Assembly: GCA_963921825.1 (NCBI GenBank)
Contig: OY997592.1
Coordinates: forward strand, 52,286,336 to 52,350,335
Origin: Erodium maritimum
Taxonomy: Eukaryota > Streptophyta > Magnoliopsida > Geraniales > Geraniaceae
Reading direction: 5' to 3'
Length of the DNA: 64,000 bases
Shown here: positions 14,286 to 42,224 of the stretch, one piece after another
Layout of the letters: every line of letters begins with the position of its first letter
How positions within the stretch are numbered: the stretch's first letter is position 1
Made by a program: the position numbers and the translations under genes
The notes under the pieces: model-generated
Told to the model about the DNA's origin: nothing
The model's database searches: none
The model's input: the letters and a program-made list of their open reading frames with translations, nothing else

Positions 14286-14353
14286 GACACCATTGTCTAT
14301 AAAGTCAAGGATTCGTCGATTATTAAAGATGGTAAGGAATTCAGGGTGACCTG
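14286..14353 (+). pseudogene. Transposase exon island between two solo LTRs
   Basis: These 68 bases encode DTIVYKVKDSSIIKDGKEFR followed by VT and two bases of the next codon. They continue exactly in frame from 11004 and into 17884. They are the part just before the SWIM zinc finger. The two flanking insertions have different target duplications, so they were independent. Confidence 0.85.
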
Positions 14354-17300: not shown

Positions 17301-17883
17301 TTGTGATCTTGTTTGGTGTGCGATCCTTCGTGATCTTGTTGGTGCGTGATCCATTGTGATGATGTTTGGTGTTGCGTAACTTTCTTTGGAGTCCTTGGAA
17401 GAGTTCGTCAATGGTTGTGTCGGGTCTACTTTACGTGTCAGGGTGTCGAGTTGGTCAGGGAAAGCAACAGTGGGTGTATGTTCAGTTAGGGTGCTTGGGT
17501 TGGGGATGGTGTTCCCCGGTGTTGAGTTGTTGTTGGTGTTACTTGTTTTGTCTGCTAATTATGCCGTAGTCAGTCTGTTATCTGTGGTGGTGAGCGAACG
17601 CTCACCCCTAGCTGCTTTTCCTACAGGTACTGTTCGTGGGACGGACTAGGTGAGCTTCTGAAGCTTGAAGAGCTTGAAGCGGGTTTCTGGGTGTTTTGAG
17701 TCTAGTGACGTGTACCTCGTTTTTGTCCACTTGTTGGGACGTGTTTTAAGTTGTAATTATTATTTTGTTGAACTAAATTGGTATTTTAAAGTGATTTAAT
17801 GAAAACAGGTTTCAAGTGTTTTTATGTTTTTAAAACGTTCGCGTCCCGAGATCGATTTCCTGAAATTGGGGCGTGACAACCTG
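14349..17883 (+). mobile_element. Solo LTR of a Tekay-like gypsy element, forward orientation
   Basis: The LTR is 14354-17878 (TGTAATAACC to GGGGCGTGACA), 3525 bases, with the 5-bp target duplication ACCTG at 14349-14353 and 17879-17883. There is no internal sequence. With the reversed LTR at 11005-14280 it forms an inverted repeat with arms of more than 3 kb and a centre of only 73 bases. A GAA-rich tract, the GTGAGCG hairpin (17590-17605) and several copies of a GGGTGGCC(T/A)TGAGAGCCCG unit lie inside. Confidence 0.9.
14931..14992. repeat. GAA microsatellite within the solo LTR
   Basis: A run of about 20 GAA triplets. The corresponding place in the LTR at 31016 has only a short GA-rich stretch (about 31570-31620), so the tract expanded in this copy. 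Confidence 0.85.
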
Positions 17884-18496
17884 GACGATGAGTACACACA
17901 ATTTTGAGTGCAATTGCAACAAGCTTCTAACAACGGGCTATGTATGTTCTCACATATTCTTTGCGCTGCAAAACACAACGTTAAGGAAGATTCCTAGGAC
18001 GCTGGTAAACCCGAGATGGTGTAAAGACATAAACTTGACAGCTACATTGTCTTCTAATGGTGTTGCACCTGAAGGTCCTAGTCTGAAGGACGATGAAGTT
18101 ATGGATGCAGTGAAAACCAGGTTTACTGAAATGATTGGGACAGAAGATGCAGCAATTTCAAGTATTCGAGGATTGTTGGACACTCTAAATCGATACAGAG
18201 TGAAGACGGTGGATGACATAGTGAATGAGAATAGACTCAATAGAACAAGTTTCATAGCATCGGTGACAGGGATCAAATTACCAGAAATAGTCACTGTCCA
18301 GCCACCAAATATCACAAACACCAAGGGCTCTCGCTTGCGATCTGGGAGTAGAATGATCAGTAATAAAGAAAAGGCAATCAATGCTAGTAACAAGCGAAAA
18401 CGGCTATGCGCCACATGCCGCACATTGCAAGACCACGACAAAAGGACCTGCCCTCTGAATATGAATAAGAAGAAGAAGAAGAATAAGAAGAAGTAG
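17884..18496 (+). pseudogene. G1 transposase segment: SWIM finger and C-terminal zinc knuckle
   Basis: The frame is open to the stop at 18494-18496. It begins with the SWIM finger (NFECNCNKLLTTGYVCSH), typical of FAR1-type MULE transposases. Later come LLDTLNRYRVKTVDDIV, a basic stretch (SRLRSGSRM) and the knuckle LCATCRTLQDHDKRTCP followed by a Lys/Asn-rich tail. The G2 copy ends the same way (LCHGCFKMTNEHDKRNCP). Confidence 0.8.
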
Positions 18497-19079
18497 AAAT
18501 GATGTATATTTTCAACTGCGGATTTCGTTGTTTCCGTTTGCGAATATAGACAATAAGTTTTGCGAATAAATAAATACTGTTTGATGATACATTTGTTTGA
18601 GTTTTCCGAATTAATAAATTTCGTTTCTGCACATGTTTTTATTTATATGAAATTTAATATAATATATTGTACACGCATAACGCAAGACCATGACAAAAGG
18701 ACCTGCCCCGCTGAGTAAGAATAGGAAGAAGAAGTAGACTGATGAAGATTATCGATTGCGGATTTGTCTTCTTCTGTTTGCGGATATAGGTCAACGGTTT
18801 TGCGGATTTAATATAAAAAATTGTTTGCGAATATTTCAAATTTCGTTTACTAAAAAATATATAATGATTTGAGAATTTACTACTTTCATTTTGCGTACGA
18901 AAGGGAAGTGAAACGGTTTGTGGTAGACCAATCAAATAATGACAGCGTGGAAACGTGGGTGAGAATTAATTGCTCCACTAACCCACGATGCCCTGGATGT
19001 TCCCCTATATATACCCAAATAGAGTATCCTTCTATACTCAACCCTCAACTCTTCGAATACCCAATTTTACTCTGAAAAA
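18497..19079. repeat. G1 spacer with the phased motif in reverse orientation
   Basis: Cores here read on the opposite strand, for example CTGTTTGCGGATATAGG and GTTTGCGAATA, unlike most of G1. It also includes a short copy of the transposase 3' end (18680-18740) and the promoter of tiny gene d (TATATATA near 19006). Confidence 0.6.
18680..18740 (+). pseudogene. Duplicated fragment of the transposase 3' end
   Basis: GCAAGACCATGACAAAAGGA, CCTGCCC and a following AAGAAGAAGTAG copy the end of the transposase gene at 18426-18496 (HDKRTCP ... KKK stop) with small changes. The flanking noncoding sequence with the reversed motif is duplicated with it. Confidence 0.7.
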
Positions 19080-19397
19080 ATGGCGTCGTCAAGCAGCAGG
19101 AAGCGTAAAAGCTATGAAGATTATCTCGACGAACGCGAAAGGAAGCTGAAGGAGCAGAACAATAATGACAAAAAACAAAAGCGTCTCATCAAACACGAGA
19201 AGTTCGTGACGAGCTTCAATGAAATCAAGCCCAAGCTTTCTGAGATCGAGCTTGAGCTTGAAATATTGGCCTCGGATGTTGGCGACGAGCTGTGCACTGA
19301 AATGAGCACCGAAGAGGTGCTTGCAAACACAGCCCTCACCGGGAAGATAACCGAAGTGATCATAGCTGTGAACAAGGCTATGAAACTGGTGGTATAG
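19080..19397 (+). CDS. Tiny helical protein, copy d (105 aa)
   Basis: The gene is one exon, with a TATA box near 19006, about 74 bases before the ATG. It starts MASSSSRKRKSYEDYLDERE and is very basic and polar at the N-terminus (possible nuclear signal RKRK). A helix with KKQKRLIKHEKFVTSFNEI runs on into SEIELELEILASD, then an acidic turn (CTEMSTEEVL) and a final helix ITEVIIAVNKAMKLVV. The Leu/Ile spacing suggests a two-helix coiled coil. The KRLIKHE block is shared with copy e and with the G2 copy at 54748 (RRLIEHE), tying the two elements together. Copy e is a tandem duplicate 812 bases downstream. The function is unknown. Confidence 0.75.
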   Translation: MASSSSRKRKSYEDYLDERERKLKEQNNNDKKQKRLIKHEKFVTSFNEIKPKLSEIELELEILASDVGDELCTEMSTEEVLANTALTGKITEVIIAVNKAMKLVV

Positions 19398-19891
19398 GGG
19401 TAGCAAACCCTATTCTCTTCGATTCCTTTTGTCTGTTCTTAACCAGTTTAAAGTAATTAAAAAAAATCGTTTTTCTTAAAAAAGTTTATATTTCACTTTC
19501 GATTATATATAATTCCGTTATTTATTTTACATGCGAAACACTTACTAGAATCAGCAAACCATGATCTCTGTATCCGCAAACCAGGATCTATGTTTCCACA
19601 AACTTCCGTCCTTAATTATAGTCGCGAAACATAATAAAAGTATCCGCAAACTACAAGATCGTATACGCAAACACCAAGTAAAGAGAAAATACAACTTCGT
19701 TTTTGCGTACAAAAGGGAAAGTGGACCGGTATGTGGTAGACCAATCAAATATTGACAGCGTGGAAACGTGTGGGAGAATTAATTGCTCCACTAACCTACG
19801 ATGCCCTAGATATTCCATATATATACCCAATATTGTATCCTTCTATACTCATCCCTCAACTCTTCCTATAACCAATTTTACTCTGAAAAAA

Positions 19892-20209
19892 ATGTCGTCC
19901 TCAAGCAGCAGGAAGCGTAGAAGTTATGAAGATGAATTCGACGAACGCGAAAGGAAGCTAGAGGAGCAGAATAAGAAGGACAAAAAACAAAAGCGTCTCA
20001 TCAAGCATGAGGAGTTTCTGATGAAGTTCAAGGCAATCGGGCGTCAGCTTTCTGACATTGAGATTGAGCTTGAAATTTTGGGTATGGAAGTAGGCGAACA
20101 GCTGTGCACTGACATGAGCTCCGAAGAAGCGCTTGCAAACTCAGCCCTGAACAGGAAGATAACCGAAGTTATCATAGCGGTGAACAAAGCTAAGAAACTA
20201 GTGGTATAG
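19892..20209 (+). CDS. Tiny helical protein, copy e (105 aa)
   Basis: This is a close tandem duplicate of copy d: same length, same start context (AAAAAATGTCGTCC), and a TATA box about 74 bases upstream. It begins MSSSSSRKRRSYEDEFDERE. Differences are mostly conservative (FLMKFKAIGRQLSDIEIELE against FVTSFNEIKPKLSEIELELE) with no stop or frameshift. The conserved frame despite diverged flanks suggests the protein was under selection. The upstream segment starting GTGGTAGACCAATCAAATA is duplicated too. Confidence 0.75.
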   Translation: MSSSSSRKRRSYEDEFDERERKLEEQNKKDKKQKRLIKHEEFLMKFKAIGRQLSDIEIELEILGMEVGEQLCTDMSSEEALANSALNRKITEVIIAVNKAKKLVV

Positions 20210-21211
20210 GCATAGCAAACCCTAGCCTCTTTTGTTTCCCTTTATCTGTTCTTAACCAAATCTTATTAATCAATAACAAAATCTTTTTCCTTAAATACAT
20301 TTATATTTCGCTTTCAAGTTATGTATGATTCCATGATTTGTGTTACACGCGAAACAGAATATAACTATCAACAAACCATGATATCTGTATCCGCAAACCA
20401 GAATCTCTGTATTCGAAACTTTAAGTCAATAATAATAGGCATAATAATAGGCAAATTTACAATATAAGCAAACCAGTATATATGAATCTGCAAACTACAA
20501 GTCCGTATCCGCAAACAACATGTTAAGAGAAACAAAATAACAATAGTAGCAAAACAGGATCTCTGTATCCGCAAACTACAAGGCCATATATGACCATTAT
20601 ACCCATCATCGTCTTCCTCCACATTTTCTTTATCCTCCTCTTTCTCATCATCGTCATCGTCACTGATGATAATAGGGCAATCCTCTTTCTATATGGTGAC
20701 ATGACATAATTAAAAAAAAAGGTCTATGATGACATGATTTGTAGGGTTAAAAAATTGATTTAAACTAAACCAAACGGCGGTGAAAAGACATAACAACGCA
20801 TTAAATGAGATAAGATCTTGGTGCATTCAAGGAGGATTTTAGTAATGATGTACTGTAACCGTGGAAACTTAACCGTCAGATTTTGAAATCATACCATCTG
20901 ATTTTGGGGAACGATTGACACGCGTCCTCTACAAGATCTTATCGTATCACATTCCGATAGACGTAAATCAGCATTTAGTTTGAGAATTATGAGTTATTGA
21001 TTGCGAAAATAATATATATGTTTTGCGGAATCCTTACCAGTTAACTAATCTATATATAATTAGAACTCTACTTTTAACAAAATAACGATAATGCCACCGC
21101 AAGATTTCAACTATAAATACCCCCACCCCTATAATTCTTAACCCTAGAACTCTTCTTCAATTTCAAAACCTCTTCTCTAATAACTTCAAACCACCAAAAT
21201 CTGCAAAAGAG
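20210..21211. repeat. G1 spacer with phased motif and start of a 1.17-kb tandem duplication
   Basis: It holds motif copies at about 20385-20580, a decayed acidic frame on the reverse strand (20579-20690), and from about 20780 the first copy of a duplicated block that includes tiny gene f. The palindrome-like GACACGCGTCC lies at about 20917 and TATAAAT at 21112. Confidence 0.6.
20579..20690 (-). pseudogene. Possible remnant of an acidic-protein gene
   Basis: On the reverse strand a short open stretch reads PIIISDDDDDEKEEDKENVE and then EDDDGYNG. It resembles in composition and in the SDDDDD patch the acidic gene at 5724-6236. It has no start and no full-length frame. Low-complexity DNA could give the same picture. 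Confidence 0.35.
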
Positions 21212-21559
21212 ATGGCCTCCAACAGGAAACGCACCAGATCTCAAGGTAACGTTTGCACTGAAGAAGCTGTGGAACGTACCATTGAGGAACGTTCTAAGAA
21301 GATGCGTGAGATGGAGCAAGCGACTATGGATACGACAATGGAGATTCGCAAAGTAAAGTTGGCACTAATCCAATGCCACTTTTTTCTGATGGAGGAGAAG
21401 GTGGAAAACCTTATCCATGAACTGGAAGTGCTTGACATGAGAAACGGGACTGCAAAGCTTAACGAAGATAGAGACAAGATGATGACGGCACTGAAACAGA
21501 TTCATGATTTCTTCAAAACCATGGCGATAGCAGAAGACGAAGGCACATCCGGCCCATGA
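21212..21559 (+). CDS. Tiny helical protein, copy f (115 aa)
   Basis: The gene is one exon, with a TATA box (CTATAAATACCCCC) 100 bases upstream. It starts MASNRKRTRSQGNVCTEEAV, again with a basic N-terminus. Helix 1 contains IRKVKLALIQCHFFLMEEKV and continues ENLIHELEVLD, followed by a polar turn and helix 2 with DKMMTALKQIHDFF. An insertion of about ten residues (RSKKMREMEQ) relative to copy g extends the first helix. It ends EDEGTSGP. The layout is the same as the other copies; no known domain is recognised. Confidence 0.75.
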   Translation: MASNRKRTRSQGNVCTEEAVERTIEERSKKMREMEQATMDTTMEIRKVKLALIQCHFFLMEEKVENLIHELEVLDMRNGTAKLNEDRDKMMTALKQIHDFFKTMAIAEDEGTSGP

Positions 21560-22383
21560 AGGATGTAATCATATTTTCACTTTTATCATGTCAATCGTCT
21601 TTTGATGTTTTTGTTTTGGGTTTTGAACACTTGGTTTCTCAATGAAATGATGATTAGTATCTACCTATTCTACTGTTAAAGTAATCTATATAAATTCGCA
21701 AAAGACATATTATGTATTCTCGAAGACGTAGTTTTAATTTCGTAAATGAGAACATGATTGTTCGCAAACGAAAATTACTGAAATGATAACATGTTTGCAC
21801 ACAACTAGGGCATATCAGCAAAATACAGGAAATAATTAAATTCGCGAAACATAATAACAGTATCCGCAAACAACAAGTCCGTATCCGCAGACAATGATCT
21901 CTGTATCCGCAAACTACAAGTCCTTATCCGCAAAACTAAGTGCGATAAGACTGACCAACGCATGAAATGCGATAAGATCTTCCTGCATTCGATTGGGATT
22001 TTACTAATGATGAAATATAACCGTGAAAACTTAACCGTCTGATTTTGAAATCATATCGATTACATGATACGTCTAATTTTCGTAACGATTGACACGTGTC
22101 CTCTACAATATCTTACAGTATCACATACCGATACACGTAAATTAGCATTTAGTTTGAGAATTATGAGATACGGATTGCGAAAATAAGGTATATGTTTTGC
22201 GGAATTATTATTAGTTAACTAATCTGTCTATAATTAGAACTCTACTTTAAACATAATAACGATAATGCCACCGCAAGAATTCAACTATAAATACCCCCAC
22301 CCCTATATCACTGAACCCTACAACTCTCTTTCAATTTAAAATTCTCTTCTCAAATAACTTCAAACCACCAGTCTGCAAAAGCG

Positions 22384-22701
22384 ATGGCCTCAAACAGGAA
22401 ACGCACCAGAGGGGAAGGAAACGTTTGCAACGCAGAAGCTATAGAACGTACCAGAGAGGAAGCCGCTTTGCAGTATAAACTGCAGTTCCGCAAAATAAGG
22501 TTGGCACTATGCCAGATCCACTTTTCGCTGATGCAGGAGAAGGTGGAAAGCCTTGCCAATGAACTGCAAGTGCTTGACATGAGCAACTCGACTGAAAAGC
22601 ACAAGGAAGATAGGGACAAGATGATGGCGACACTGGAAAAGATTCAGGACTTCTTCAAAACAATTGAGGTAGACATGGAGCAGGGCACATCCGACCCATG
22701 A
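22384..22701 (+). CDS. Tiny helical protein, copy g (105 aa)
   Basis: Tandem duplicate of copy f, about 1172 bases downstream, with the same promoter text (GACACGTGTC near 22091, TATAAATACCCCCACCCCTA at 22286). It starts MASNRKRTRGEGNVCNAEAI. The middle helix reads IRLALCQIHFSLMQEKVESL, then ANELQVLDMSN and a second helix with MMATLEKIQDFFKT. Substitutions from copy f are spread out, and the frame is intact, consistent with selection on the protein. Confidence 0.75.
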   Translation: MASNRKRTRGEGNVCNAEAIERTREEAALQYKLQFRKIRLALCQIHFSLMQEKVESLANELQVLDMSNSTEKHKEDRDKMMATLEKIQDFFKTIEVDMEQGTSDP

Positions 22702-22899
22702 AGGATGTAGTTATATTTTCCCTATTATCATGTCAATCGTCTTTTTAGGTTTTTGTGTTTTGTTTTGAAAACTTAGCTTCTCAGTGAATGTATGACTAGT
22801 ATCTGCTTATCAATGTGAAAGTCACCTATATTTAATTCGCAAACGATATTGCATAATCTGAAACAAGGAACCCCATTTTCTAAAACCAAGGATTGACAA

Positions 22900-23065
22900 T
22901 TCGCAAAACAGAAAAATAGTTCCGCAAACTAGACACTGTTATTCGCAAAACAGAAAACACATTACCTCAAAAAACAGAGGAACCCCAGTTTCGCAAAACA
23001 GAAAAACAATACCCGTAAACTAGACACTATACATTCGCAAAACAAAAAACACATAACCTCAACCA
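22900..23065. repeat. Phased GCAAAC array downstream of tiny gene g
   Basis: Cores start at about 22900, 22921, 22942, 22964, 22990, 23012, 23034 and 23056, that is steps of 21-22 bases with one 26-base step. Variants include TTCGCAAAAC, TCCGCAAAC, CCGTAAAC and CTCAAC. Confidence 0.7.
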
Positions 23066-23253
23066 ACAACTTGTTTATCCTACAATACAGCATATTCAGA
23101 AACAAAAGATCTTATAAATTCTGAAAATAGTACACAGATTATTCTCAAACAATATATCATAAATTCTCAAACAAAGAAAATTTTCGTTTCTGAAAACAAA
23201 CACCAGTAATCAAAAAGAGTAATTCACTAAGCTTTATGACGTTCGCATGGTAA

Positions 23254-24653
23254 TTAGGCTTTATACTTGACACTAAATTTGAATGTGACCTTCTTCTTTT
23301 TGAAATAATCTTTGATATTCTCCTCAATTCCTAGCCACAGGCTATTCTTCTCAAATGTGATCAACTTAAAGAGGAATCTTTTCCTCAATAATTCGATTTG
23401 TGCAGCCTACAAAATCAAAATTTAAAGATCAAATCTATACTCATTGCTATATACTGACAAAGAAATAATTGTTGGTTTAACTTACATCATTAACGGTCAA
23501 TTCTCCTGCCCAATTCCCATTGCCAAGATACGATTCCATGTGCCACATAGCATGCACCCCACAATCCATATGATTGTCATTAGATTCCCATGGTACATGT
23601 AACCGATCAATCTTACCGTTGAAAATTTTCTGAGCTAGAGCTTTATCAGTTTTTGATATGACCTTGCAAATTTTAGACCTCTACGCAACACAAAAACACC
23701 AAAGAAAAATAAATAAAAACAGAAATGAATAGATAGACAGTAATCAAACACATACTCAATGAGAAAAGAATGCGTACCAATGTATAGTGAATTTTTCATA
23801 ACGAACATCGTCATCAACCGTTCCTTTCACATTGTCAATAATATTTGAATTTCTGTTCTTCATGTCGATGCATAACAGTGTGAAGTGATTGCTCTTAAAA
23901 GCAACTATGAAAACCTGTAGAAAATATATAAAATGCATCAGCATATTAATATAATGGATAAATGGGTTTATATAATACAATCATTCACTACTATATCAGC
24001 AAAACACATATTCACTATCAGCAAACTACATTTTCATTATCAGCAACCCAGGGAAACTGTTTCTCAAACCAGGGTGCGCATATCCGCAAAACATGTATTC
24101 AGTTTCCGCAAACTTGATAGAAAATATTCGCAAACAAGAAAATCCATACCCTCAAACCAGATATTGGGTGTCTCAAATAGGTAAACGTTATTTCTCAACC
24201 AAGGGTGCGTATAGACGCAAAACATACAAACCTTACCCGCAACCAACATATTGAATATTCTAAAACCAACCATGTATTATACTTACCAAGTCCAACTTCC
24301 TCCATGAAAAAGAAGGGAACTCCTTAGTTTCAATGTTGAAAATTTCGTCAAAATCTACATCTTTTTTATGTGCCAAAAGCGTAGCCTACAAAATAAAAAT
24401 ATTAATAACAAAAACATATTAAAATAATTCAAACTATAAACGTAATCAACAAAAAAATTGCGCAAATTATCCTTACACTAAGAGTAGTTGAAAAGAAGAA
24501 CTGGTTAGGTGATGAATCACTCTTGATAGTTTCCAGATGATTCAGATAGTGACACCACCCATTAATGGTTTCCACTTCAATCCATGCATCATTTTTGAAA
24601 GAATTAAAGCCCCCCTTGGTAATATAATTTTCAGAGCACTGAAACATAAAAGC
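23254..24653 (-). pseudogene. Ulp1-like catalytic domain exons (end of the gene)
   Basis: Exons by splice signals and phase: about 24653-24477 (WIEVETINGWCHYLN ... FFFSTTLS), 24385-24287 (33 codons, ending FPSFSWRKLDL), 23914-23778 (with SNHFTLLCID), 23678-23486 (with DCGVHAMWHMESYLG) and 23406-23254 (51 codons with stop, AAQIELLRKRF ... VKYKA). Phases agree from 24477 on, so this end of the gene is intact and could encode a complete peptidase core. The junction with the preceding exon (donor GTAAGT near 24745) does not fit by phase, so one edge or frame there is wrong. Confidence 0.75.
24018..24178. repeat. Phased GCAAAC array in an intron of the Ulp1-like gene
   Basis: Cores at about 24018, 24040, 24061, 24083, 24105, 24127, 24149 and 24170: seven steps of 21-22 bases. 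The array sits in the intron between exons 24385-24287 and 23914-23778 and stops before both. Confidence 0.8.
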
Positions 24654-24741
24654 CTTGCATTCACAGAGAGAAAAAAAGCCTATTCACTGTATTTGCAAAA
24701 ATAAAATATAAAAACAAAATAAGGGAAAAAAAATATTTTAC

Positions 24742-26140
24742 TTACCAATCCTCGGTTTTGCTTTTATTCAGCACCCAATCTGCAACACAATCCTCAACCT
24801 CCAGAATATCGGACCAATAATCTGTTTGACGATCAACGTACAGAGAACACATAAATTTAGACGGTGCAATCAAACGAGGTAAAGGTTGTTTGTCTGGGGT
24901 TTCCCTTAATAAAGATGTCTTGCTACATCCAATTGACGTAAAACTATTGCCACTTGCAGTAGGTTTCTTAACAACAGGGGGATTTTTCTTAACACCACCT
25001 TGAGCTTTTTTTGCTGCAACAGTACGGGGTACTTTCTTCTCGGGGACAACAGCGGGGCCTTTCTTACCGGGTGCACGAGCGGGACCTCTCTTCTTCGGTG
25101 GATCAATAATTGAGCCAGGCTCCACATGACCAACACCATCAGTCGACTTCTTAGGAGGATGCATGAACCCTTTTTTTTATCAGGAAGAGGTATGCCAGCA
25201 GGGCGTTGGACTATGGATTCACGAAATCTTGTCATTGCAAGTTCAGGATTCTCGTCAACTGTCTCAGAGACCTCTTTCCCACCAATAGAACGATTGATAT
25301 TTTGGTCAACCCGTGCAATAACAATTGGCGGGGGTTGAGTCTTGCAAGCTTGATTAACAGGTGGATCATTGTTGACATTTTTTTCGACAACAATTATATT
25401 GAGTGGCTCGGGTTGCTCTTGAAGTGTCTGACAAAAGTCATTAACAGACGGAGACCCGTTGACATTTCCTTGACTGCATTCTATAGTAAGTGGGTCTGAC
25501 TCCACTACAAGAGCCCAACAATCATCTTTGTTAACAACATCGGGAGCTTCACATTCCGCGATTGGATAATCAACAACCATGTCACAAGCTTGCTTCCCAA
25601 TACCATAAGCAACAGAAATAGCGTCAAACTCATCGCCAACACTGTTATTCTTTTCTGGCTCAGTTTGTTCTGCAACAATATTATCCACAGGGGTTGCATC
25701 ATTACTTGCGAACAATTTCCGAACCACATTATCGCATTCAGGGCTTGACAATGTAGTGGATCCAGCAGGGCATGGTGAAAGAACATTGGCAGGCGATTTT
25801 TGGGATGGTGAAAGAAGTCTGAATGATGGTGGAGTAACGGCACGAGCAGGTGGCTTCTCTCCTCCTTTGTACCCTTCCCCAACGCGTGTTGCTGCTTCAA
25901 TCAATTTCTCAATGGTCTCAATAACCCCAGGTAGATTAAACTATGAGTCTTGTGACAGCAACACACTTTGTGTGTTAGGCATGGCATCTTCGGGATTTTT
26001 TTTCCCGGTCAAACCATCAAACAGGGTTGACATTGTCTTGAAACACTCAGTATTGGGATCAGCAATGTGCCCTTCAACCAACAACTGATGCCATTCCAAA
26101 AAACATTATGCAACCTTATTCCCTGCTATTCGAAACCTTT
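24742..26140 (-). pseudogene. Linker region of the Ulp1-like gene
   Basis: The frame starts MIAERFRIAGNKVA near 26140, carries in-frame stops soon after, then is open from 25904 as a low-complexity stretch (PSFRLLSPSQKSPANVLSPC). A frameshift at the A run near 25175 moves the reading to GFMHPPKKSTDGVGHVEPGS and a Lys/Pro-rich segment (PPKKRGPARAPGKKGPAVVP). It ends with SDILEVEDCVADWVLNKSKT, which again looks like conserved protease-family sequence. The disordered basic linker may be a nuclear or nucleic-acid contact. Confidence 0.55.
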
Positions 26141-26295
26141 CTGCAATCATCTGAATACGATAAAAAGAAGCATGTTAATGTGATTAAATGAAAACAAATA
26201 AAACACAAGGTATGCATCAACTACAAAACACATCTTCAAACCAAAATGTGCATATTTGCACACAATAAACCTAGGCACAAATCACATGCAGCAAA

Positions 26296-26475
26296 TACTC
26301 AAAACTGTTTCGCAAACCAGAGTGTGCATACTCGCAAAACAAAGAATCACTATCCGCAAACTAGGTAAAGCATACACGCAAAACATAAATTCACAATCCG
26401 CAAACAGGGTAAGCATATTCGCAAAACATATATTCACAATCCGCAGACTAGGTAAAGCATATTAGCAAAAAGTTC
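26296..26475. repeat. Phased GCAAAC array, intron, first block
   Basis: Cores at about 26309, 26331, 26353, 26375, 26397, 26418, 26440 and 26462, steps of 22 or 21 bases. Units alternate between CCGCAAACTAGGTAAAGCAT and TCGCAAAACATAAATTCACA types, giving a 44-base higher order. Confidence 0.85.
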
Positions 26476-26586
26476 AATCAATAACAGAGAATGCATCAAC
26501 TAAAACACACATCTGCAGACCAAAATGAGCATATTTTAAAACTGTTCCTACCAGAGTACGCACTATCGCAAAACATACAATCACTA

Positions 26587-26818
26587 TCCGCAAACTATTT
26601 AAACCATACTAGCGAAGCAAAAATTCACTATCCGCAAACTAGGTAAAGCATATTCGCAAAACATATATGCACTATCCGCAAAACACAATTTCACTAATCG
26701 CAGAACATATATTCACTATTCGTAGAACATATATTCACTGTTCGCAGAACATAAATTCACTATCCGCAAACTAGGTAAAGCATATTCGCAGAACATATGT
26801 TCATTATCCGCAAAAAAA
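26587..26818. repeat. Phased GCAAAC array, intron, second block (eleven 22-bp units)
   Basis: Cores at 26587, 26609 (weak), 26631, 26653, 26675, 26697, 26719, 26741, 26763, 26785 and 26807: every step is 22 bases. Core variants are TCCGCAAAC, TTCGCAAAAC, TTCGCAGAAC and TTCGTAGAAC. It lies in an intron of the Ulp1-like gene. Confidence 0.9.
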
Positions 26819-27291
26819 AAAACAAGTCAATCAATAAACCTAACTGTATATTTGAAAAACATAATTCCCCCACAAAAAAATTAATTAAATAATAGAATAC
26901 CTCTGCAGAACCCCTTTCACTATGAAGATGGGGTATTCGGGGCCGGCGGATCTCCACCATTTCTATCACCACTTTCATTATCCCTATTTACGTTAGGTGG
27001 TGGATGCTGAGCAACATTCTCTTCCTCCCTAACACGTGGAGGACCCTCCCTCCGTATGTGACCCATTCCAAATGACTCACACTGTAATTCATCACCGACT
27101 CTTCTGTTCACCAATGCAGTATTCCATCCAATCAAAGACGGCCACGCCCTAGGAACCTCACACGTGCTGACTTCAACACGATCAAGATAAAACAACTGCA
27201 TCATTGAAAGGAAAAGACATGTCACATGAATATAACATAAGAGTTTATTAAATATAAAATACAACACATTAAAATGAAAAATAAAACTTAC

Positions 27292-28247
27292 CAATAAGAG
27301 AGTTATTGATCCAGAAAAATTCTTTGAACCTTCGTGTTGTTTTAACCAGATTTTTTTTGTATCCACAAGTTTCTTGACTAAAAACTTGCACCAATTAAAA
27401 TCTTGTATGTGAGATACATCAACAATAGAACGGAAGCATGACTGATTCACATAACCCTCATTCCCCTAATCGATCATGCAAGTCACAAACAACATCATGA
27501 AGTTTCTTTTGAAATCATCTCCCCCTTGAAGTTGCGTCTTCATCTGATCAACCAACTGCTTACTGGTGATAAGACGCTTGATCTCGCCTTTGTCTTTTGT
27601 ATCGAACTGCCGCTGCCACAATTTAAGTTTATCAGTACACAGGGTGGCCAACTTATCGACTATGACGTCGCGCACACCATTTGGAATGCCCAAAGTTTCA
27701 TGCACTTCATTCTCTGTGATACGCAATTTGGAATCTGGTAATTCCAATGATGAGCTAAGGTGGTTATACTTCGACACCAGGTAATATCCAATCTTGCTTG
27801 GAATGATCTTCACAGCCAAATGAAGAATGTGCCCAAACCCAATTTCCCGCACTGCTTCTTGTTGGCGTTTATTCAAACTCTTCACCAACTCAACCAATCT
27901 CTTTGGAGATGACCTGGTCTTTAAAATAGCATCCACGCCAACCTTATCAGATAACGGGACAACTCTATCAGACTCACAACCCTTGGTGCGCTTAACATTC
28001 TTCTTCTCAACAGCTAATTCTCCACTTCTCTTCTTTCCGGCTTTAGCAGGGCGGACAGCTACATCGAGACATTCACGAACCTCAGCTACCTTCTTCTTCT
28101 TAATTGAAAGTCTTCGTTTATTTTTATTCTTAATAGACTTCTGCTCCTTCAACATATTAGCAAGAGTCGTATTTCCTTCACCAACATCAGCCTCTGTGGA
28201 TGGCCTATCCATTAAAAGAAGAGGTACCACTGTATCTGGAGTTTTAT
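27292..28247 (-). pseudogene. DUF1985-like exon of the Ulp1-like gene
   Basis: The acceptor TTATAG before 28247 joins exon 1 in phase; the donor GTAAGT follows 27292. The N-terminal third is basic (KSIKNKNKRRLSIKKKK, NVKRTKG), likely nuclear. The middle matches the conserved plant region with REIGFGHILHLAVKIIPSKI, SKYNHLSSSLELPDSKL and NEVHETLGIPNGVRD. A TAG at 27466-27468 breaks the frame between VTCMID and GNEGYVNQSCFRSIVDVSHI, where the family normally continues, so this copy is mutated. Confidence 0.7.
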
Positions 28248-28250: not shown

Positions 28251-28890
28251 TAATTCGCAAACAAGGGTTAGTATTTCAGCAAAACAGACAATATACAAAA
28301 ACATTGAATATTCACGAGAAAGAAAAACAGTGCCCGCAAACAAGATACTATATATTCGCAAAACATAAATTCACTACCCGCAACTACATAAATCTAATTC
28401 GCAAAACATATATTCACTATCCGCAAACAAGGTAAAGCATATTATCAAAACATGTCAAACAATAACAGGGTATGCATCAACTACAAAACACATCTGCAAA
28501 CCAAAATGTGCATATTTGCATACAATAAACCTACGCACATATCAAATACAGGATTATTCAAAACTGTTTCTCAAACCAAAGTGCGCACACTCGCAAAACA
28601 TAAATTCTTTATGCGCAAATTGGGTAAAGAATAATCGCAAAACATGAATTCATTATTCGCAAAACAGAAAAACAAAGTCCGCAAAACAAGATACTCGCAA
28701 CACAGAAACCCCAAAACCTCAACCAACAACTTGGTTTTCCTCAAAAGTAGATCAAAATCATCTCATAGTTGAATAATTTCATGGTATTTCATTATTCACT
28801 TGAAATGGTGTACACTAAAAGCAAAACACAAGCACTCTGAAAACATAGCACCTATAAAAAATCCGCAAACTACAAACACTATATTCTCAA
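28251..28890. repeat. Phased GCAAAC motif region, first intron of the Ulp1-like gene
   Basis: Many cores occur (ATTCGCAAACAAGG, GCCCGCAAACAAGATAC, TATCCGCAAACAAGGTAAAG, ACTCGCAAAACATAAATTC) at about 22-base steps. The stretch GCATCAACTACAAAACACAT is shared with 26213-26235 and points to local copying between introns. Confidence 0.75.
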
Positions 28891-28950
28891 ATTACCTGAT
28901 TCGCTGTCCCTGTTGCAGAATGTTGTAGATTCAGCAACCTTGTTCTTCAT

Positions 28951-29366
28951 TCTCTACAAACGGATTACTATAATCAAAAAGCTAAATAACCAAACGAACA
29001 AGATTGAATCAAAACCCTAAAAACACCAAAAATTGTAACTCACCACAATGAACTATTGAAATTCACTTCGAAATCGCGCAGAAGACGAATATCAAGGCAA
29101 TGGAAGCTCAAAAAATCAGATTCCGAAATGTTCGTTTCGCTAAAAACTCGATTCTGCAAGTGTTTTGGTGAGCACGAAACGTTTCTGCGCGAACGGGTAG
29201 ATAAAAGTACGTTTATACCCCCGAACCATAGCAAATCAGTTAAAATGAATCCCACGCGCGACTTATTTACGACGCGTGCCACTAATGACGCGTTCAAATC
29301 TGCGCCATCGCGAAATTCACATCGGACGGCCATCACGCAGTGCGCAGGTTCGCACCTGATTTCTCT

Positions 29367-29370
<4 letters not shown>
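28951..29370 (-). promoter_or_regulatory. G1 right end with the presumed promoter of the Ulp1-like gene
   Basis: On the reverse strand the element end (CAGGTGCGAACCTGCG) is followed by GC-rich text, a possible TATA box (GGGTATAAACG near 29215) and a leader with a possible intron donor (GTGAGTT near 29043). The terminal repeat therefore may double as promoter. No gene is seen beyond this. Confidence 0.5.

Positions 29371-29400
<30 letters not shown>
29371..29400. repeat. TA microsatellite at the right end of G1
   Basis: A pure TA run between the G1 right end (TTCTCTCCTA) and MITE copy 2 (TAGGGTAGC). Confidence 0.9.
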
Positions 29401-29406
<6 letters not shown>

Positions 29407-29678
29407 CTATCCAGTAAAAACCACCCTTATTGTGCAAACTACGAACTCACCAGGTGCTGACACGTGGCGCGCACAGTGCTAATAGTTTGGGACTATTAGC
29501 ACTGTGCGCCCAAACTATTAGCACTGTGCGCGCCACGTGCCAGCGCCTGGTGAGTTCGTAATTTGCACAATAAGGTGCGGTGTTTTATATATATATTGTC
29601 CACGTGTCAGCATCTGGTGCGCTCTGCTGACATCAGTTTGGGGGGATCCTATGGCTCTCATGGGTTCGTAGTTCGCAC

Positions 29679-29965: not shown

Positions 29966-31015
29966 TGTTGGGTCTCGAGGTAGGGTTGGAGATGAACCAA
30001 CTCGCAGCGGAAAATCAAGGAAAACCAAGAGACGATTAAAACCATGAAACAACTAACAAAGAATGGATTCACAAGAGAAAAATTCAGCACTAGTTCTTAC
30101 CAAAACAAGAACACCGGGTAACGAATGATTGGCTTGAGTCTCCAAGACGCCTACGTATCCACATGGGAATCAAAGCCACGTAGTTCTTCTCTTTGAGGAC
30201 TCAAGAACACAAAAATGGAGGTGGGAGCTTGCCAAACCCGAAATTGCAAGGGAAGGGAGAGAGAAGTTGTGTTTCCTATTCTTGTCGTGTGTTTGTTATG
30301 TTGAAAAAAGATGACTTAAACATAACAAAACCCATACTTGTCCAACTAAAGGCATGGGACAAGTATGGTGTCAAGTAAGGTGTAAATAGGACAAAGTATG
30401 GCAAGACAAGATTGGGTTAGGTGGTGAATCAGCAACACCTTAATCCTTGTCTTGCTTGCTTAGTACTAATTAATCAAGACTTGATTAATTAGTTCCATGG
30501 GCCTTGGTTGCATGGGCCTTTCATGGGCCTCTTGGAACATGGCCCGTGGCCATTTCCAACGAGGTCCCGTGATTCGCTCATCGCCTCCAAGCCTTCCATA
30601 CCGGAAATGTCCAACATTATCCGACGCAATCAATCCCAAGACTCCAAGTCTTGTCTCGATCCGTAAAGTTCTATTCACTTACGGGCACATGACCCAAAAC
30701 CCAGTTTTGGTCATGTCCCGAGACAACTCCCTTTTGGCCATTCTCCATAAATGTGTCAATGAGTTTCATCCTCCGGTGTGACCCTTAGGTTTATGCATGT
30801 AAATAGATCAAAGTAAAATCCCATTTTACTTGATCCTATTTAAGTGGAAACTAACGAGACTTTAGTATTGCCTGACACTGCATAACGAATCGACCCTGTC
30901 GATTCTAACCTTTCCGTCATCCCTGTCATTATCCTTTTATCTCCGATATCCTGATTGAGATAAGGCATAGAGCCGTCATCCTTATTATTCTCAATCAATG
31001 TTCCTTGATATGTTA
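29966..31015 (-). repeat. Copia 3' LTR, distal part
   Basis: It aligns with the first 1050 bases of 47943-49629 (both begin TGTTGGGTCTCGAGG on the plus strand) with scattered base changes. It is cut at 31015 by the gypsy insertion and continues at 42225. Confidence 0.9.
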
Positions 31016-33883
31016 TGTAATAACCACTTCTGGTCAACGTCAGTCAAACCTGCGAAAAACAGGAAAATTTAAAAATTTTAAGACAGACACTTAACTTAAC
31101 TTAAATTGACCCCGAGGGTCATGCCGGACTTAAGTTGACCCCGTTATCGACTAAAATGAGTTACGGGGGACTCAGGGCAACTTCCTGGTCATTTTGGGAA
31201 AGATTGATTTTTCGCTGGAAAAGTCACCCGAGCGACGTTTTGGTCCATTCGAGGACCGTTTTGGACCCGAAAAGCTTAGCCGTCGTCGTAGCGGTCTTAG
31301 TTGGGCCGTTTCCTTGAAGCCCGTCCAGTTTAAAATATTTTTGGGAAAAGTGCCCGTTCGGGGCCCGAAACGTCCGTTTTTCGCGAATCTGATTGGAAAA
31401 TATCAACTAGATATTTTCCAAAAGGTTGGGACCCACCTTGACACTTGTCAATTATATGGTGGTGTATTTTTGGAGGGAAAAGGTGTGGTTGGGAAGTGTT
31501 GGCCGACCATATTGGTTAAAGGGGGAGAAAGTTAGTTTTGTTGTTAGTTTAATTAAATTAGAAATTAGAAGAGAGGTTTTAGAGAGAGAAGGAGAAGGAG
31601 AAGAAGAGAGAAGAAGGGAGGTTGAGCTAGGGTTTGTGATCGAGCCCTTGGATCGAGTCAAAGCAAAGAGCAATCCCGTTCCCCTCGTTCTCCTCTACGG
31701 TAATACCCGAACCGATTCTCGTTTCGATTATTTTCAAGAGCTAGGGTTTGGTTATAAAATTTGGTTTAGGGTTGTGTAGAGATTAAAGAGGTGTTGGAGA
31801 CGTTTTAGAGGTGTTTGGGAGAGAAATTTCACGTTTTCCGGTGACCGGAGGCTCGGGAGGAGCTCCGGCCACCGTGGGTGGTGGCCGGCCGGCCATGTGG
31901 TGGCTGGCCGGAGGTGGCAGCAGCCACCACTTGGTGGCCGAGCCCCTCCCTCAAACCCTAGGGTCTCGGCCAAGCCTCTTGGGTGGGGCCCACGTGCTCG
32001 GTTGCTCGGGTTTTAATGTTCGGGTGGTTTAAAACGTCCCCCGGACCACTTTATCCTTAATCGAATCGAAATTTGGAATTAAATCGGAGAAGTTGTAATT
32101 AACGGGTTTTGGGAAACTTTAAACGTTAATTAATTGACTTAGAAGTCGGAATTCAATTCCGTCAAGTGCGTTGGGTTCCTTGAAATATTCTAAGACCGTA
32201 GAAACGAAAACGGGGACTTTTGGAGCCCCGGAAGGCAATTAACCAAAACCGGGCAGATTCGCCATGACGGGCGAATCTGGCACTTACGGGTCCTTTATCG
32301 GCAATATCGAGTAATTGGGAAGTTTGGGAGTGATCGGCATTGTCGGGGTTACGTTTGGGCGTTAAGTTTATTAATTTTCGGTTTACTCGTACTAGTTTAA
32401 AAGTACTTTAAATTTGTGTTCTGTTAGATCGTGCTACGGACCGAGGCAAGGGGAAGCTCGGCGAGTGACTGAGTGTGTTTCGGGTGTTGTTGGAGCGCTT
32501 TTGGGATTGTATACGAGGTAGGGAAAAGTAGCCGGATCTCGGCCCTGATTAGGGAAAGTTAATAGTAGAATTGCATGTGACACCGGGGTGTCGTGGGTTG
32601 AGTAGATTTATTTAATTATTAGAAAAGCATGATACGGGATTGTAGCGTTTAAGAGAAAGGCATGTGACACTTAGTAGTGTCGTAGGAACAGAGAACTTAG
32701 CGATAATTGAATTACTGGAGGCATATGACCATGCCCGGAGGTTGTTTGTGAAACTAGCGATTTTAGGACCGTTGGAGGCATCGAGTATGCCGGAGGTTGT
32801 CGTGCGTTTATTTAATTGTTGAGTTTGGGTGGCCTTGAGAGCCCGTATTTAATTGTTGAGTTTGGGTGGCCTTGAGAGCCCGTATTTAATTGTTGAGTCG
32901 GGGTGGCCATGAGAGCCGTGTATTTAATTTGGTGTCTTGAGTGGCAGCGAGTGCCCGTGGGGTTGTTGAACCCGAGTCTTGACTGTTGAGGTGTCTTGAG
33001 TGGCCTTGAGTGCCTGTGTGATTGAACTTGCCTGTGATTGTGATTGTGGTTACCTGGGGTGGTGAGTTCTAAAGGTCGACAGCCTGATCCGACTTAGTGT
33101 CGATGAATTGCGAGTTTTAAAGGTCGACAGCCTGATCCGACTTAGTGTCGATGAATTGCGAGTTCTAAAGGTCGACAGCCTGATCCGACTTAGTGTCGAT
33201 GAATTGCGAGTTTTAAAGGTCGACAGCCTGATCCGACTTAGTGTCGAGGAATTGCGAGTTTGAAAGGTCGACAGCCTGATCCGACTTCGTGTCGAGGAAT
33301 TGCGATAGGTCGAACCCTGACCTGATTGAGATTGGTTACTGAGCAGCTGGTGTGCGATCCTTTGTGATCTTGTTTGGTGTTGTGTCGTTTCGTTCGAGTC
33401 CTTGAGGAGGTCGTCGATAGTTGTATTGGGTCTACACTGTTTTTATCGAGTGTCGAGTCTGTTGAGGAAGGTGACGGGTTGTGGGTCAGTTGAGTACTTG
33501 AGTTGGGGACTGTAGTCCCGGTGTTGGGTTTGGTTTTAGTGTTACTGGCTTTTTCTGCTAATTATGCCATAGTCAGTCTGTTATCCGTGGAGGTGAGCGA
33601 ACGCTCACCCCTAGCTGCTTTTCCTACAGGTACTGATCACCGGACGGACTAGGTTAGCTCTTGAAGTTCATGGAGCTTGGAGCGGAGTCTGGTCTTTACT
33701 TTTGTTGAGTCTAGTGACGGATGTTGTACCCTGTCCACTTGTTGGGACGTTTTTGTATTGTAAATGCTATTATTTTGAGAAGTAAATGGAAATGTCAAAG
33801 CTTTTATTGAAAACAGGTTTCAAGTGTTCATGTTTTTAAAAGTTCGCGTCCCGAGTTCGGTTCGCTGAAATCGGGGCGTGACA
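31016..33883 (+). repeat. 5' LTR of the young gypsy element
   Basis: TGTAATAACC to GGGGCGTGACA. It includes a GC-rich block (31850-31990 with GGCCGGCCGGCC), repeats of GGGTGGCCTTGAGAGCCCG, five tandem 48-base units (33074-33313) and the GTGAGCG hairpin (33593-33608). Confidence 0.95.
33074..33313 (+). repeat. Five 48-bp tandem repeats in the LTR
   Basis: Units begin GGTCGACAGCCTGATCCGAC at 33074, 33122, 33170, 33218 and 33266. The same block is at 41410-41649. Related 48-base arrays occur in the other LTRs of the window. Confidence 0.9.
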
Positions 33884-33886
33884 GCT

Positions 33887-33898
33887 TGGTATCAGAGC
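33887..33898 (+). other. Primer binding site of the young gypsy element
   Basis: TGGTATCAGAGC, complementary to the 3' end of initiator tRNA-Met, three bases after the LTR end. Confidence 0.9.
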
Positions 33899-34500
33899 TT
33901 CAGGTTTCAAACCTCGGACTGTCCGTCACTTAGGGGGGGGAGTCGAGTCAGTGTAGACCCGTCATGTCTTGAGTCTTCTTTTTGTTTGTGCGTATGTTAC
34001 AGTATTTTGTTGCTGGCATACTGATTGTGTGTGATTGCGTGAACTGTTTTTTAACTGTCGCGGGTCGACTCAGGAGCGCTCCTGTAGTCGAACGTGACGG
34101 TGTTGATGTCAAGTCGGTACAACGTGGTTCGGGGACGCCTGAACCGGGTTGTAACTACGTGATGTCAAGGAACGAAGTTTTAAAATGAAAGGGTGAAGGT
34201 TTTAAAATTATTGGCCCTATGGGCATATGTTTGATTTTTGATTGGCCCGGTGAACGGGGGTCGTCGTGTTGTGTGGGTTGGTTTGCCGTCGCTTGTTTGG
34301 TGCACGTCGGTGCGGTCTCGTTGTGGTCTCGTTTACTAATGCTAGTATATAAAGTACGTTTAGCTTGAGCGGTGTAGCGCTTTAGTGATAAGCACGTTAG
34401 TGTAAGCTTAAGAGGGTGGACGTTAGTGCGTTTGTACTGTCGTTTTTATTTAAGTTCGCAAACTGAACGTTTGCGTGTATCCGTGCAGAGGATACTGTTT
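33899..34500 (+). other. Leader of the young gypsy element
   Basis: This is an untranslated leader between primer site and Gag start with no credible gene. The text TCGACTCAGGAGCGCTCCTG and the GGGGACGCCTGAACCGGGTT region recur in the leaders at about 59240 and, reversed, 62900-62990. Confidence 0.6.
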
Positions 34501-37092
34501 ATGGCTCGCGGTAAGCGGGGACGACCATCAGGAACGCGGGGCCAGGCACCCACGCGAGGCCGGCGGGGACGGTCAGCAGGGGCACCAGGGAGGGTGCCGA
34601 CCGTCGAGCCCGCCGACTATGCGGAGGCACAGGGTACTCCTGTCGGAGAAGACAGGAGGAGTGATGCGGGGCCGTCTGCAGGCACCCCCAGTGTTCCGCC
34701 AGTCGCGGACCCTCCAGTGATGACTGCCCTGGATGAGCTTACCAGGACCGTTCAGAGTTTGGTGGCGATCATCGCCAGCCGAGAGTCGGCTTCGCCAGCA
34801 CCAGAGGCAGCCGCAGTCCCGGTGAGGGCCGCTCAGACAGAGGATCTTACCTCCCGAGCGCTACTAGATTTCCTGAAGCTCGGGATACCTGTTTTTGTCG
34901 GGGAGCCGAATCCCGACCTGGCTGAGCGATGGATAGAGCAGGTCACACGAGACTTGGACACATCGGGTGTCGAGGATGGCCGTCGGAGAGTGTCCTTCGC
35001 GGCCCATCAGCTGAGAGACAGCGCCTACCACTGGTGGGGGCGGGTGAAGGACACGGTCGGATACGACTACAGCGTATTCCAGGAGGTATTCATGGCACAG
35101 TACTTCCCCGAGTCGGCTCGGCTGGAGCGACATCGGCAGTTCTTAGACCTGGAGCAAGGGGGGATGACGGTAGGAGAGTACGAAGCCAGGTTCACAGCCT
35201 TGGCCAGATTCGCGCCTGAGATGGTGACGAGCGAGGCGAACCGTTGCCTGCGGTTCCAGGACGGACTGAGGCTGGGCATCCGGAACCAGGTTCTCGCCTT
35301 GAGGATACGGAAGTATACCGACCTCGTGGACACCGCAGCTACAGTAGAGCAGGGCGCCAGGGATGCAGTCAGGAGCCGTGAGGTCCGACCTCGGCCGATC
35401 AGTTGGGCAGGGCCGTCAGACTCACGAGACTCGCGGAGGCAGAGGACCGCGGGATCCTTCCGACCACCGCCTCATCAGAGTGGATCGAGACAGCAGGGGT
35501 CAGTGGCATCAGTGGGGCCAGTCGCCTCAGAGAGGAGGCCGTCATGCTATCACTGCGGGCAACCAGACCACTTACATCGAGACTGTCCGACGAGGGGAGG
35601 AACCGCGGCAGTACCAGCTACTAGCCGGACAGGCCAGGGCTCGGGGTCGAGGGCTGACGAGATCAGCTGTTACCGATGCGGCCGGGCCGGTCACACTATG
35701 GCATGGTGCCGAGAGCAGTTGGGGGAGACATCAGTGCAGCGACCGCAGCAGTCGCGGACAGTACAGTCGCCCAGAGGTCGCCCTCGACAGGGTCAGCAGC
35801 CGAGATCATCACGGCCGTCTACGAGCGCACCAATTCCGAGACAGCAGCAGAGTCACGGGTATCCAGCAGCCAGTGCGCAGGGTCAGAGGCAGCAGGCCTC
35901 GCAGGGGAGAGTATATGCAGTCACCGACTCCAGAGCCCCAGGACCTAGCACGTACCGTGAGACCATCCAGGGTACGTGTTTGTTGTATCATTTATGGGCT
36001 TTGTTCTTGTTTGATACCGGGGCATCGCACTCTTTTATTTCGTCGGGTTGTGCTGAGAGGTTGGGGTTGAGCTTAGAGCCGTTGAGTCCACCCCTATGCC
36101 TGGACACCCCAGTTGGGGGTGGTGTATCGTTGACTAGAGTATGTCGTGCCTGCGAGATTAGAGTCGCAGACTGTCCTTGCCCTGGTGACCTTCTCGTGTT
36201 GGGGATGACTACCTTTGATGTGATTTTGGGTATGGATTGGTTGTCGAGGTACCGAGCCAACATCGATTGCTACAGACGACGAGTGACAGTGACAGTGGGC
36301 GGTACGAAGGTGACGTGCGTGCTGGGGAGTAAGAGTGGGGTCCTCCTGTCGGCGTTGTCTGCAGAGGAGGAAGTACCGGCTGTGCAGAGCCGAGAGTTAC
36401 CGAGAGTGGTATGCGAGTTCCCCGAGGTCTTTCCTGAGGAGTTGAGCGGGCTGCCACCGATTCGTGAGGTGGAGTTCGGGATTGACCTAGTGCCGGGAAC
36501 GGCGGCGATATCGATGGCGCCTTACAGGTTTGCGCCGGCAGAGTTGACTGAGCTGAAGCGTCAACTGGAGGAGCTTCAGCAGAAGGGGTTTATCCGTCCG
36601 AGTGCATCGCCGTGGGGAGCACCAGCACTCTTCGTGAAGAAGAAGAGTGGAGAGCTACGGATGTGTATAGATTACCGGAAGCTGAACCGGGTTACGGTGA
36701 AGAACCGGTACCCGATGCCGAGGATCGATGACTTGTTTGACCAGTTGAGAGGGGCGACTCACTTCTCGAAGATCGATCTGCGATCCGGTTATTATCAGTT
36801 GCGAGTCCGTGAGGGGGACGTCGCAAAGACTGCATTCCGGACACGCTATGGGCATTACGAGTTCCTGGTGATGCCATTCGGACTGACGAACGCGCCAGCA
36901 GCGTTCATGGACCTGATGAACAGCATCTTCCGGCCGTACCTGGATCAGTTTGTGGTGGTGTTCGTGGACGATATCCTAATATATTCGCAGAACGAGGCGG
37001 CGCATGAGGCACATCTGAGGGTTGTTCTGACCCTACTGCGCGAGCACCAGCTATATGCCAACTGGGAGAAGTGCGAGTTCTGGCTCTCTTAG
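34501..37092 (+). pseudogene. Gag, protease and reverse transcriptase part of the gypsy polyprotein (863 aa, ends at a premature TAG)
   Basis: The start is set at the ATG at 34501 ([11 protein letters not shown]), since the open frame upstream begins with GTG. Residues: Gag core about 110-270 ([10 protein letters not shown]), two CCHC knuckles at about 349 ([14 protein letters not shown]) and 390 ([14 protein letters not shown]), aspartic protease at 505 (DTGAS), and reverse transcriptase from about 670 with FVDD at 821-824. The TAG at 37090-37092 falls in CEFWLS, where relatives have a Gln before the RNase H side, so CAG to TAG is the likely change. Everything else in the frame is open. The products are the capsid-like protein and enzymes used for reverse transcription in the particle. 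Confidence 0.9.
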
Positions 37093-42219: not shown

Positions 42220-42224
42220 TGTTA

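Follow-up and report, generated by a model that had tools for sequence, protein, structure and literature searches.

A short motif repeated at a 22-bp step in the non-coding DNA of a FAR1/Jittery-type MULE, possibly a docking array for an element-encoded protein

A short motif is repeated at a step of 22 bp in the non-coding DNA of a transposon of ~25.7 kb, and our analyses confirm that this array is real. The transposon, termed F1, lies within a stretch of 64,000 nucleotides from Erodium maritimum (hereafter the window) and is a MULE of the FAR1/Jittery type. We infer that its arrays form part of a putative self-encoded array-binding system, most likely with an anti-silencing role.

The window is plant DNA that carries gypsy, copia and MULE proteins. 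F1 was delimited within it by ten copies that align between position 3645 and positions 29356-29472, mostly at 94-98% identity. The ends of the element are inverted and are bordered by TA tracts, which were seen at both ends in the window, at two of two left ends (c5 and c9) and at seven of eight right ends (c1-c4 and c6-c9, with c4 deviating). A 9-bp target duplication, if present, would be hidden by this TA repeat. A TA-flanked, MITE-like repeat adjoins both ends of F1 in the same orientation (3289-3612 and 29380-29678, 89% identical). When the genome was searched with the intron array on which the original prediction had centred (hereafter the flagged array), 361 first-look candidates were obtained, and the 40 that were scored at full length, the window's own included, are 96-100% identical.

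The transposase of the window copy matches PF03101 (FAR1, E=9.8e-17) and PF10551 (MULE, E=1e-7), and that of copy c10 matches the same two families (PF10551, 8.6e-23; PF03101, 7e-15). A CxC..CxH pattern is visible at the C-terminus of the F1 protein, where no Pfam SWIM match was obtained. In the window, ~200 bp of the gene are missing near 10101-10122 and the remainder is split by a nested insert, and the three exon pieces are stop-free in three of the nine copies that cover them (c4, c7 and c10). Without the insert F1 measures about 19 kb. Long inverted arms that contain tandem repeats make up most of the nested element, and relatives of it occur elsewhere in the window at ~32-34, 40-42, 57-59 and 63 kb. 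Beyond the right end of F1, a gypsy retrotransposon occupies 31016-42219. Its two LTRs (31016-33883 and 39352-42219, each 2,868 bp) are 100% identical, and this element is therefore very young; the sequences that flank it (29966-31013 and 42215-42861) recur at 47943-49629 with ~98% identity. Rfam and tRNA scans of the window yielded no matches.

Table 1. Coordinates of the F1 and F2 elements, their genes and their arrays in the window.
Feature	Position	Strand	Basis or remark
F1 transposon, FAR1/Jittery-type MULE between TA tracts, nested insert included	3662-29368		Ten-copy alignment
Arrays near left end of F1	3872-5695	+	Weight-matrix hits
Arrays left of transposase exons, including five exact GCAAAC at 8298-8386	8233-9152	+	Weight-matrix hits
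F1 transposase	9298-18496	+	FAR1 region 9298-10107; MULE/C-terminal pieces 10119-11003 and 17880-18496
Nested 6.9-kb inverted-arm element, outside the array system	11004-17879		Missing at this site in all nine of the ten copies that cover it
Small coiled-coil-like genes, two tandem-duplicated pairs	19023-22701	+	~19023-20209 and ~21092-22701; duplications 79%
Two arrays beside small genes (19554-19667, 20393-20571)	19554-20571	+	Tandem Repeats Finder, weight-matrix hits
Array between small genes	21698-21930	+	Tandem Repeats Finder, weight-matrix hits
Array 3' of antisense gene	22839-23192	+	Weight-matrix hits
Antisense gene	23257-28212	-	Exons by eye, at least eight; C-terminal part weakly Ulp1-like
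Antisense-gene exons	28212-27292, 27195-26921, about 26105-24746, 24653-24477	-	By eye
Antisense-gene exons, continued	24385-24287, 23914-23778, 23680-23486, 23406-23257	-	By eye
Array in second antisense-gene intron	23990-24262	+	~1 unit left in diverged copy L048, missing from L049
Flagged array, antisense-gene intron	26306-26841	+	Without counterpart in diverged copy L048
Arrays upstream of antisense gene	28257-28956	+	Weight-matrix hits
F2 FAR1-MULE	50186-55560	+	Transposase ORFs 50186-51325 and 52065-52925, then few 23-bp repeats
F2 23-bp repeats	53501-53589, 55179-55226, 55419-55468	+	

The 22-bp step is readily apparent in an autocorrelation of the element. The 112 occurrences of GCAAA between 3661 and 29370 are paired 32 times at lag 22, 23 times at lag 44 and nine times at lag 66; lag 21 has eight pairs and lag 23 has none. 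Fifty dinucleotide shuffles of the same segment gave a mean of 0.06 and a maximum of one pair at lag 22, and the flanks hold no such pair (1-3660, with five GCAAA; 29371-64000, with 29). The same check was suggested for CTCAAA, for which the three lag-22 pairs among 34 hits do exceed the shuffle maximum of one (mean 0.08), but the signal is weak. In a cross-validation, a weight matrix derived from either half of the element gave 22 as the top lag in the opposite half (21 and 22 pairs). Its plus-strand hits number 5.9-6.0 per kb in the element versus 0.26-0.30 per kb in the two flanks and zero in the nested insert; on the minus strand the corresponding densities are 1.4-1.7, 0-0.41 and 0.44 per kb. 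The consensus of the arrays is about TATCCGCAAACNA, with one occurrence per 22 bp.

The sites first read from the letters fit the 22-bp grid only if the core is relaxed. Five exact GCAAAC cores at a step of 22, predicted at 8295-8383, stand at 8298-8386, and the eight cores predicted at 26309-26462 with steps of 21-22 were recovered at 26312-26465 (seven GCAAA and one GCAGA, with steps of 22, 22, 22, 22, 21, 22 and 22). Eleven further cores had been described as GCAAAC at a constant step of 22. A grid of 11 places does exist at 26590-26810, but a relaxed core is needed to fill it (six GCAAA, three GCAGA, one GCGAA and one GTAGA), and the term 'GCAAAC core' was overstated because exact GCAAAC is found at only three of these places. 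Likewise, the sets placed at 24018, 19551 and 22900 hold when variants (CTCAAA, GCAAC, ACAAA and GTAAA) are admitted, but not without such variants and gaps. The positions first quoted for the sites begin at TCC and are ~3 bp too low. The proposal that the step is about two helical turns holds only roughly, in that a step of 21 is tolerated and one of 23 is not, and the phase coherence of the sites reaches its maximum near 11.0 bp and is below the printed threshold at 10.5 bp.

Across the genome, the 22-bp step is nearly exclusive. Counted such that copies of the same arrays add weight and do not represent independent events, pairs of TCCGCAAA occur at step 22 in 2,833 places and at steps 23-27 in 17 places together, with a reversed control giving zero in each case. 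Steps 12-21 yielded 247 places (control, one), and 97 of the 100 places listed have, by eye, the length expected for step 21. On C1 (4-30 Mb), the 100 step-22 places listed group into 36 clusters, and both orientations are present in 12 of them. In 11 of these 12 the arrangement is '-..+', with eight clusters spanning 480-850 bp and three spanning over 1 kb. This arrangement suggests short non-autonomous elements that carry the same arrays and that would be kin to F1. Opposed step-22 clusters 0.5-0.85 kb apart can be seen, for example, at C1 13763971-13764844 and 8665903-8666567.

As had been predicted, the repetition runs across non-coding DNA. With exons annotated by hand, CGCAAA on the plus strand occurs 68 times in the 11,139 non-coding bases of the element (6.1 per kb) and three times in its 7,693 coding bases (0.39 per kb), and the minus-strand counts are 11 and three. 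The 45,168 bases outside the element hold five on the plus strand and 12 on the minus strand. Arrays occupy two antisense-gene introns, flank that gene on both sides and also lie beside the small genes and to the left of the transposase (Table 1). All GCAAA pairs with a step of 21-22 in the ten joined copies and in L044-L049 fall within stretches that align to F1.

Arrays also come and go among copies of F1. The flagged intron is 858 bp long in copy c1 and 810-816 bp long in the window and the other nine copies. In the diverged copy L048, whose exons align to those of F1 copies at 77-89%, window positions 26306-26841 and 24008-24262 are almost without counterpart, and one TATCAGCAAAC remains in the second intron. 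The second intron array is also missing from L049, where the first intron is hidden by a foreign insert. Judging from these two copies, the intron arrays appear either to be a gain of the younger lineage or to have disappeared from the older one.

The antisense gene that houses these introns matches PF02902 (Ulp1, Peptidase_C48) with E=0.0029 and 17.9 bits, below the Pfam cut-off of 20.7. The whole protein from copy c1 produced no Pfam match up to E=10, and a PDB sequence search with the Ulp1-like part produced none up to E=1. A putative triad of H, D and C can be discerned by eye in the window gene, and the context of D or C is changed in c1. The window copy is probably dead because two in-frame TAG codons and a change of frame disrupt it; of eight other copies, four have a stop-free exon E1, and these include c3, which has a deletion, and the partial c10. 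For exon E7, 453 candidates were obtained in the genome, the 150 scored being 78-100% identical, and dN/dS for the antisense gene between F1 copies and the decayed L048 is only 0.52-0.67. DUF1985 was considered as the identity of the E1/E2 part and was rejected, as neither E1+E2 nor the c1 protein has a Pfam match to it, and no DUF1985 place listed for the genome falls at the window E1. At least 150 DUF1985 places in the genome lie above the cut-off (150 scored of 841 candidates). Genuine DUF1985 genes are thus abundant, and classical VANC-like transposable elements may coexist with F1. Neither the E1 ORF nor the F2 FAR1 ORF has a protein relative at E<=0.001 in the database searched, which is probably plant-poor, given that even FAR1 found no match there, and the negative carries no weight.

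A second MULE family in the window, F2, has a transposase exon that is ~36-38% identical to that of F1 copies and matches SWIM above the Pfam cut-off. Its arrays have a motif and a step (23 bp) different from those of F1. In the 3,954 non-coding bases of another F2 copy, six-mer pairs number 26 at lag 23 (shuffle mean 1.15, maximum 9) and 16 at lag 46 (shuffle maximum 8), and the five pairs at lag 69 are within the range of the shuffles (maximum 7). In the window copy, the 23-bp step is weak, with four TGCAC pairs. Several antisense genes of F2 (L047 joined with L044; 5275-8654 and 13383-13799) are weakly TPR_27-like with E of about 1e-5, below the cut-off. TPR_27 is of the plant F-box-associated type, and these genes were possibly captured from the host. 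F1 and F2 have a small protein in common (BLASTP E=6e-7 over 63 residues, possibly aided by coiled-coil composition). No Ulp1-like gene was seen by eye among ORFs of at least 75 aa in 13.8 kb of one F2 copy whose ends were not reached, and the presence of arrays in this family makes the Ulp1-like gene weaker as the sole candidate for the binder.

We propose, with confidence that is about evenly balanced, that the phased F1 arrays are binding sites for an element-encoded protein that removes silencing marks, as VANC does on VANDALs. The dense phased sites that fill F1 introns, intergenic spacers and upstream regions would permit this protein to dock in rows, and the docked protein would then strip silencing marks from the element in a VANC-like manner. 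The first candidate for the docking protein is the product of the antisense Ulp1-like gene, because of where this gene lies, how it is oriented and the arrays that fill its introns; the small coiled-coil proteins rank second. In favour of the proposal are the lag-22 excess and the cross-validated motif, the kept core beside drifting spacers, the concentration in non-coding DNA, the nearly exclusive step, the gain or loss of arrays between copies, the scarcity of CpG C>T changes in cores and the separate motif of F2. Against it count the lack of a DUF1985 match, the sub-threshold Ulp1 match and the c1 protein that matches no Pfam family, the array-bearing F2 copy in which no Ulp1-like gene was seen, the small core-versus-rest difference in old duplicates, the core deficit that loses significance by distinct changes, and the low contrast in dN/dS (only 0.52-0.67).

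Alternatively, the arrays could be sites for the transposase or for a cofactor such as the small proteins, and could serve to assemble a transposition complex like the sub-terminal repeats of CACTA elements. Such a function would suit two families that share a transposase type and a small protein while each has arrays with its own motif, and it would also suit the opposed orientation seen in 12 of the 36 array clusters elsewhere. However, the F1 arrays span the element, introns included, and face mostly one way (71 CGCAAA on the plus strand, 14 on the minus strand). Furthermore, they are missing from introns of the diverged copy, whereas sites for end joining would be expected near the ends. 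We regard this function as unlikely.

The arrays might also be a 22/44-bp minisatellite that grew within the transposon by neutral expansion and serves no function. The original prediction held that core and spacing are kept while spacers drift, and this is borne out when all GCAAA in the element are compared unconditionally with the positions 22 bp to either side (n=222 neighbours). The match of these unselected neighbours is 0.45-0.73 for columns -1 to +4, 0.50 for column +7, 0.36-0.45 for columns -5 to -2, and 0.23-0.40 elsewhere, including -9 to -5 and +8 to +12. Exact GCAAA neighbours are found 64 times out of 222 at step 22, and 16, two and zero times at steps 21, 20 and 23. A neutral repeat is expected to decay evenly, and the columns of this unit do not decay alike (0.45-0.73 versus 0.23-0.40); the kept core and decayed spacer thus count against a neutral minisatellite. 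A held core and a nearly exclusive step would fit a protein-bound array.

Among 25 copies of the segment 26100-29000, C>T changes at CpG positions affect 15 of 1,299 cells in the core, 26 of 606 in the spacer and 45 of 1,596 in coding DNA. They are rarer in the core by column permutation (p=0.0018) and by Fisher test against spacer and coding DNA combined (p=0.015), with p=0.025 against coding DNA alone and p=0.051 against spacer alone. This deficit would fit either less methylation at the cores or selection. In all base contexts, the core of the 25 copies is lower when cells are counted (z=-2.37) and not significantly so when distinct changes are counted (z=-1.22). Over eight regions, 94 of 6,197 core cells and 543 of 29,602 spacer cells differ. 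Old internal duplicates are identical at 262 of 309 core positions versus 1,207 of 1,486 others, and the direction is reversed in one pair. Because the copies share ancestry, such substitution counts are not independent and none is a clean test.

A genuine tandem-repeat component is also present in the arrays. Units of 44 bp were reported by Tandem Repeats Finder, and these units, the one longer intron and the absence of arrays from the diverged copy indicate that arrays grow and shrink in a minisatellite-like fashion while the core is kept. A neutral minisatellite would account for these features, for whole arrays being present or absent and for the small difference between core and rest in old duplicates. 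It would not readily account for spacer columns that are at background next to a kept core, for a step of 22 that stands almost alone, or for the reappearance of one core and step at numerous distinct non-coding sites but not in coding sequence. The neutral minisatellite is thus already disfavoured, and we judge it quite improbable. The earlier statement that the array suits a multimeric DNA-binding protein better than a simple satellite is thus partly supported: core and spacer behave accordingly, but this tandem-repeat component must be accommodated, and the multimer is hypothetical. Very improbable, finally, is a host transcription factor or nucleosome-related factor for which the phased sites would act as enhancer-like elements of transposon genes: arrays do occupy both introns and regions upstream of genes, and a step of ~two turns puts sites roughly on one helix face, but two MULE families in this genome have different motifs and steps, and arrays come and go within one family, so that a fast-evolving element-encoded partner fits better than a host protein.

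Docking of an element-encoded anti-silencing protein thus remains our preferred reading. A broader proposal, which we offer tentatively and hold to be rather unlikely, is that sequence-specific anti-silencing through arrays is not confined to VANDAL/DUF1985 but also occurs in FAR1/Jittery MULEs that target TA, where it perhaps evolved independently. Motif, helical step and effector would then be particular to each family: F1 would combine a 22-bp step with a tethered Ulp1-like protease, and F2 a 23-bp step with TPR/F-box-like genes. Short non-autonomous elements that bear the arrays would be carried along. If the arrays do dock an element-encoded anti-silencer, two families that differ in motif and step within a single genome would make it possible to test how the protein reads sequence and helical phase, and could provide orthogonal tools for removing silencing at chosen plant loci.

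The sites of Spm/En TnpA are short, repeated and sub-terminal, whereas the F1 arrays span the whole element. Like the proposed F1 binder, TnpA is element-encoded, and it is linked to demethylation in the available text of its source (PMC10398659). The pairing of a Ulp1-like gene with a MULE transposase is also known (PMC2528002; PMC13317346), and ULP genes are described for Jittery-like MULEs (PMC2528002). In ULP-carrying MULEs (KI-MULEs of Arabidopsis, and elements of melon and grapevine that include Jittery-like ones), ULP lies downstream of the transposase, as in F1, in which the orientation is reversed (PMC2528002, PMC13317346). The available parts of these sources mention no phased motif arrays for the Jittery-like elements, and the Ulp1 match of F1 differs in being below the cut-off. 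Titles and the opening lines of abstracts likewise revealed no motif arrays in FAR1/Jittery-type MULEs.

F1 has a FAR1 N-terminal domain, a MULE core and an insertion site in a TA microsatellite. TA-targeting Jittery-like MULEs such as MuTAnT are known that, as far as the available text describes them, share its Jittery/FAR1-type transposase and its insertion in (TA)n (PMC4486113). AutoMuTAnT is 4.9 kb long with one ORF in that account, whereas F1 without its insert has several genes and motif arrays.

In the accessible portion of its description, VANC21 binds YAGTATTAY in tandem repeats, which lie within VANDAL21 introns and in its upstream regions and vary between copies (PMC5735166). The VANC-target arrays of Arabidopsis VANDALs (VANDAL21/Hiun and VANDAL6) resemble those of F1 in that a short tandem motif occupies MULE introns and upstream non-coding DNA, repeats are gained and lost rapidly between copies, and related families have different motifs (PMC5735166). 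In contrast, the F1 motif is TATCCGCAAAC-like with a strict 22-bp step, and is neither YAGTATTAY nor AGTTGTCC. F1, which is known here from sequence alone, has FAR1 in its transposase, and DUF1985 was not detected. FAR1 is listed for group 36 Jittery and not for group 45 VANDAL in the part of the classification available (PMC6446971). By domains rather than by a tree, the F1 transposase is of the FAR1 and MULE type and not of the VANDAL group, and F1 was not filed as VANDAL/VANC because of this transposase type and the lack of DUF1985. We nevertheless think that the F1 array system works like VANDAL/VANC. If its arrays dock an element-encoded anti-silencer, this strategy would be wider among plant MULEs and not a VANDAL speciality.
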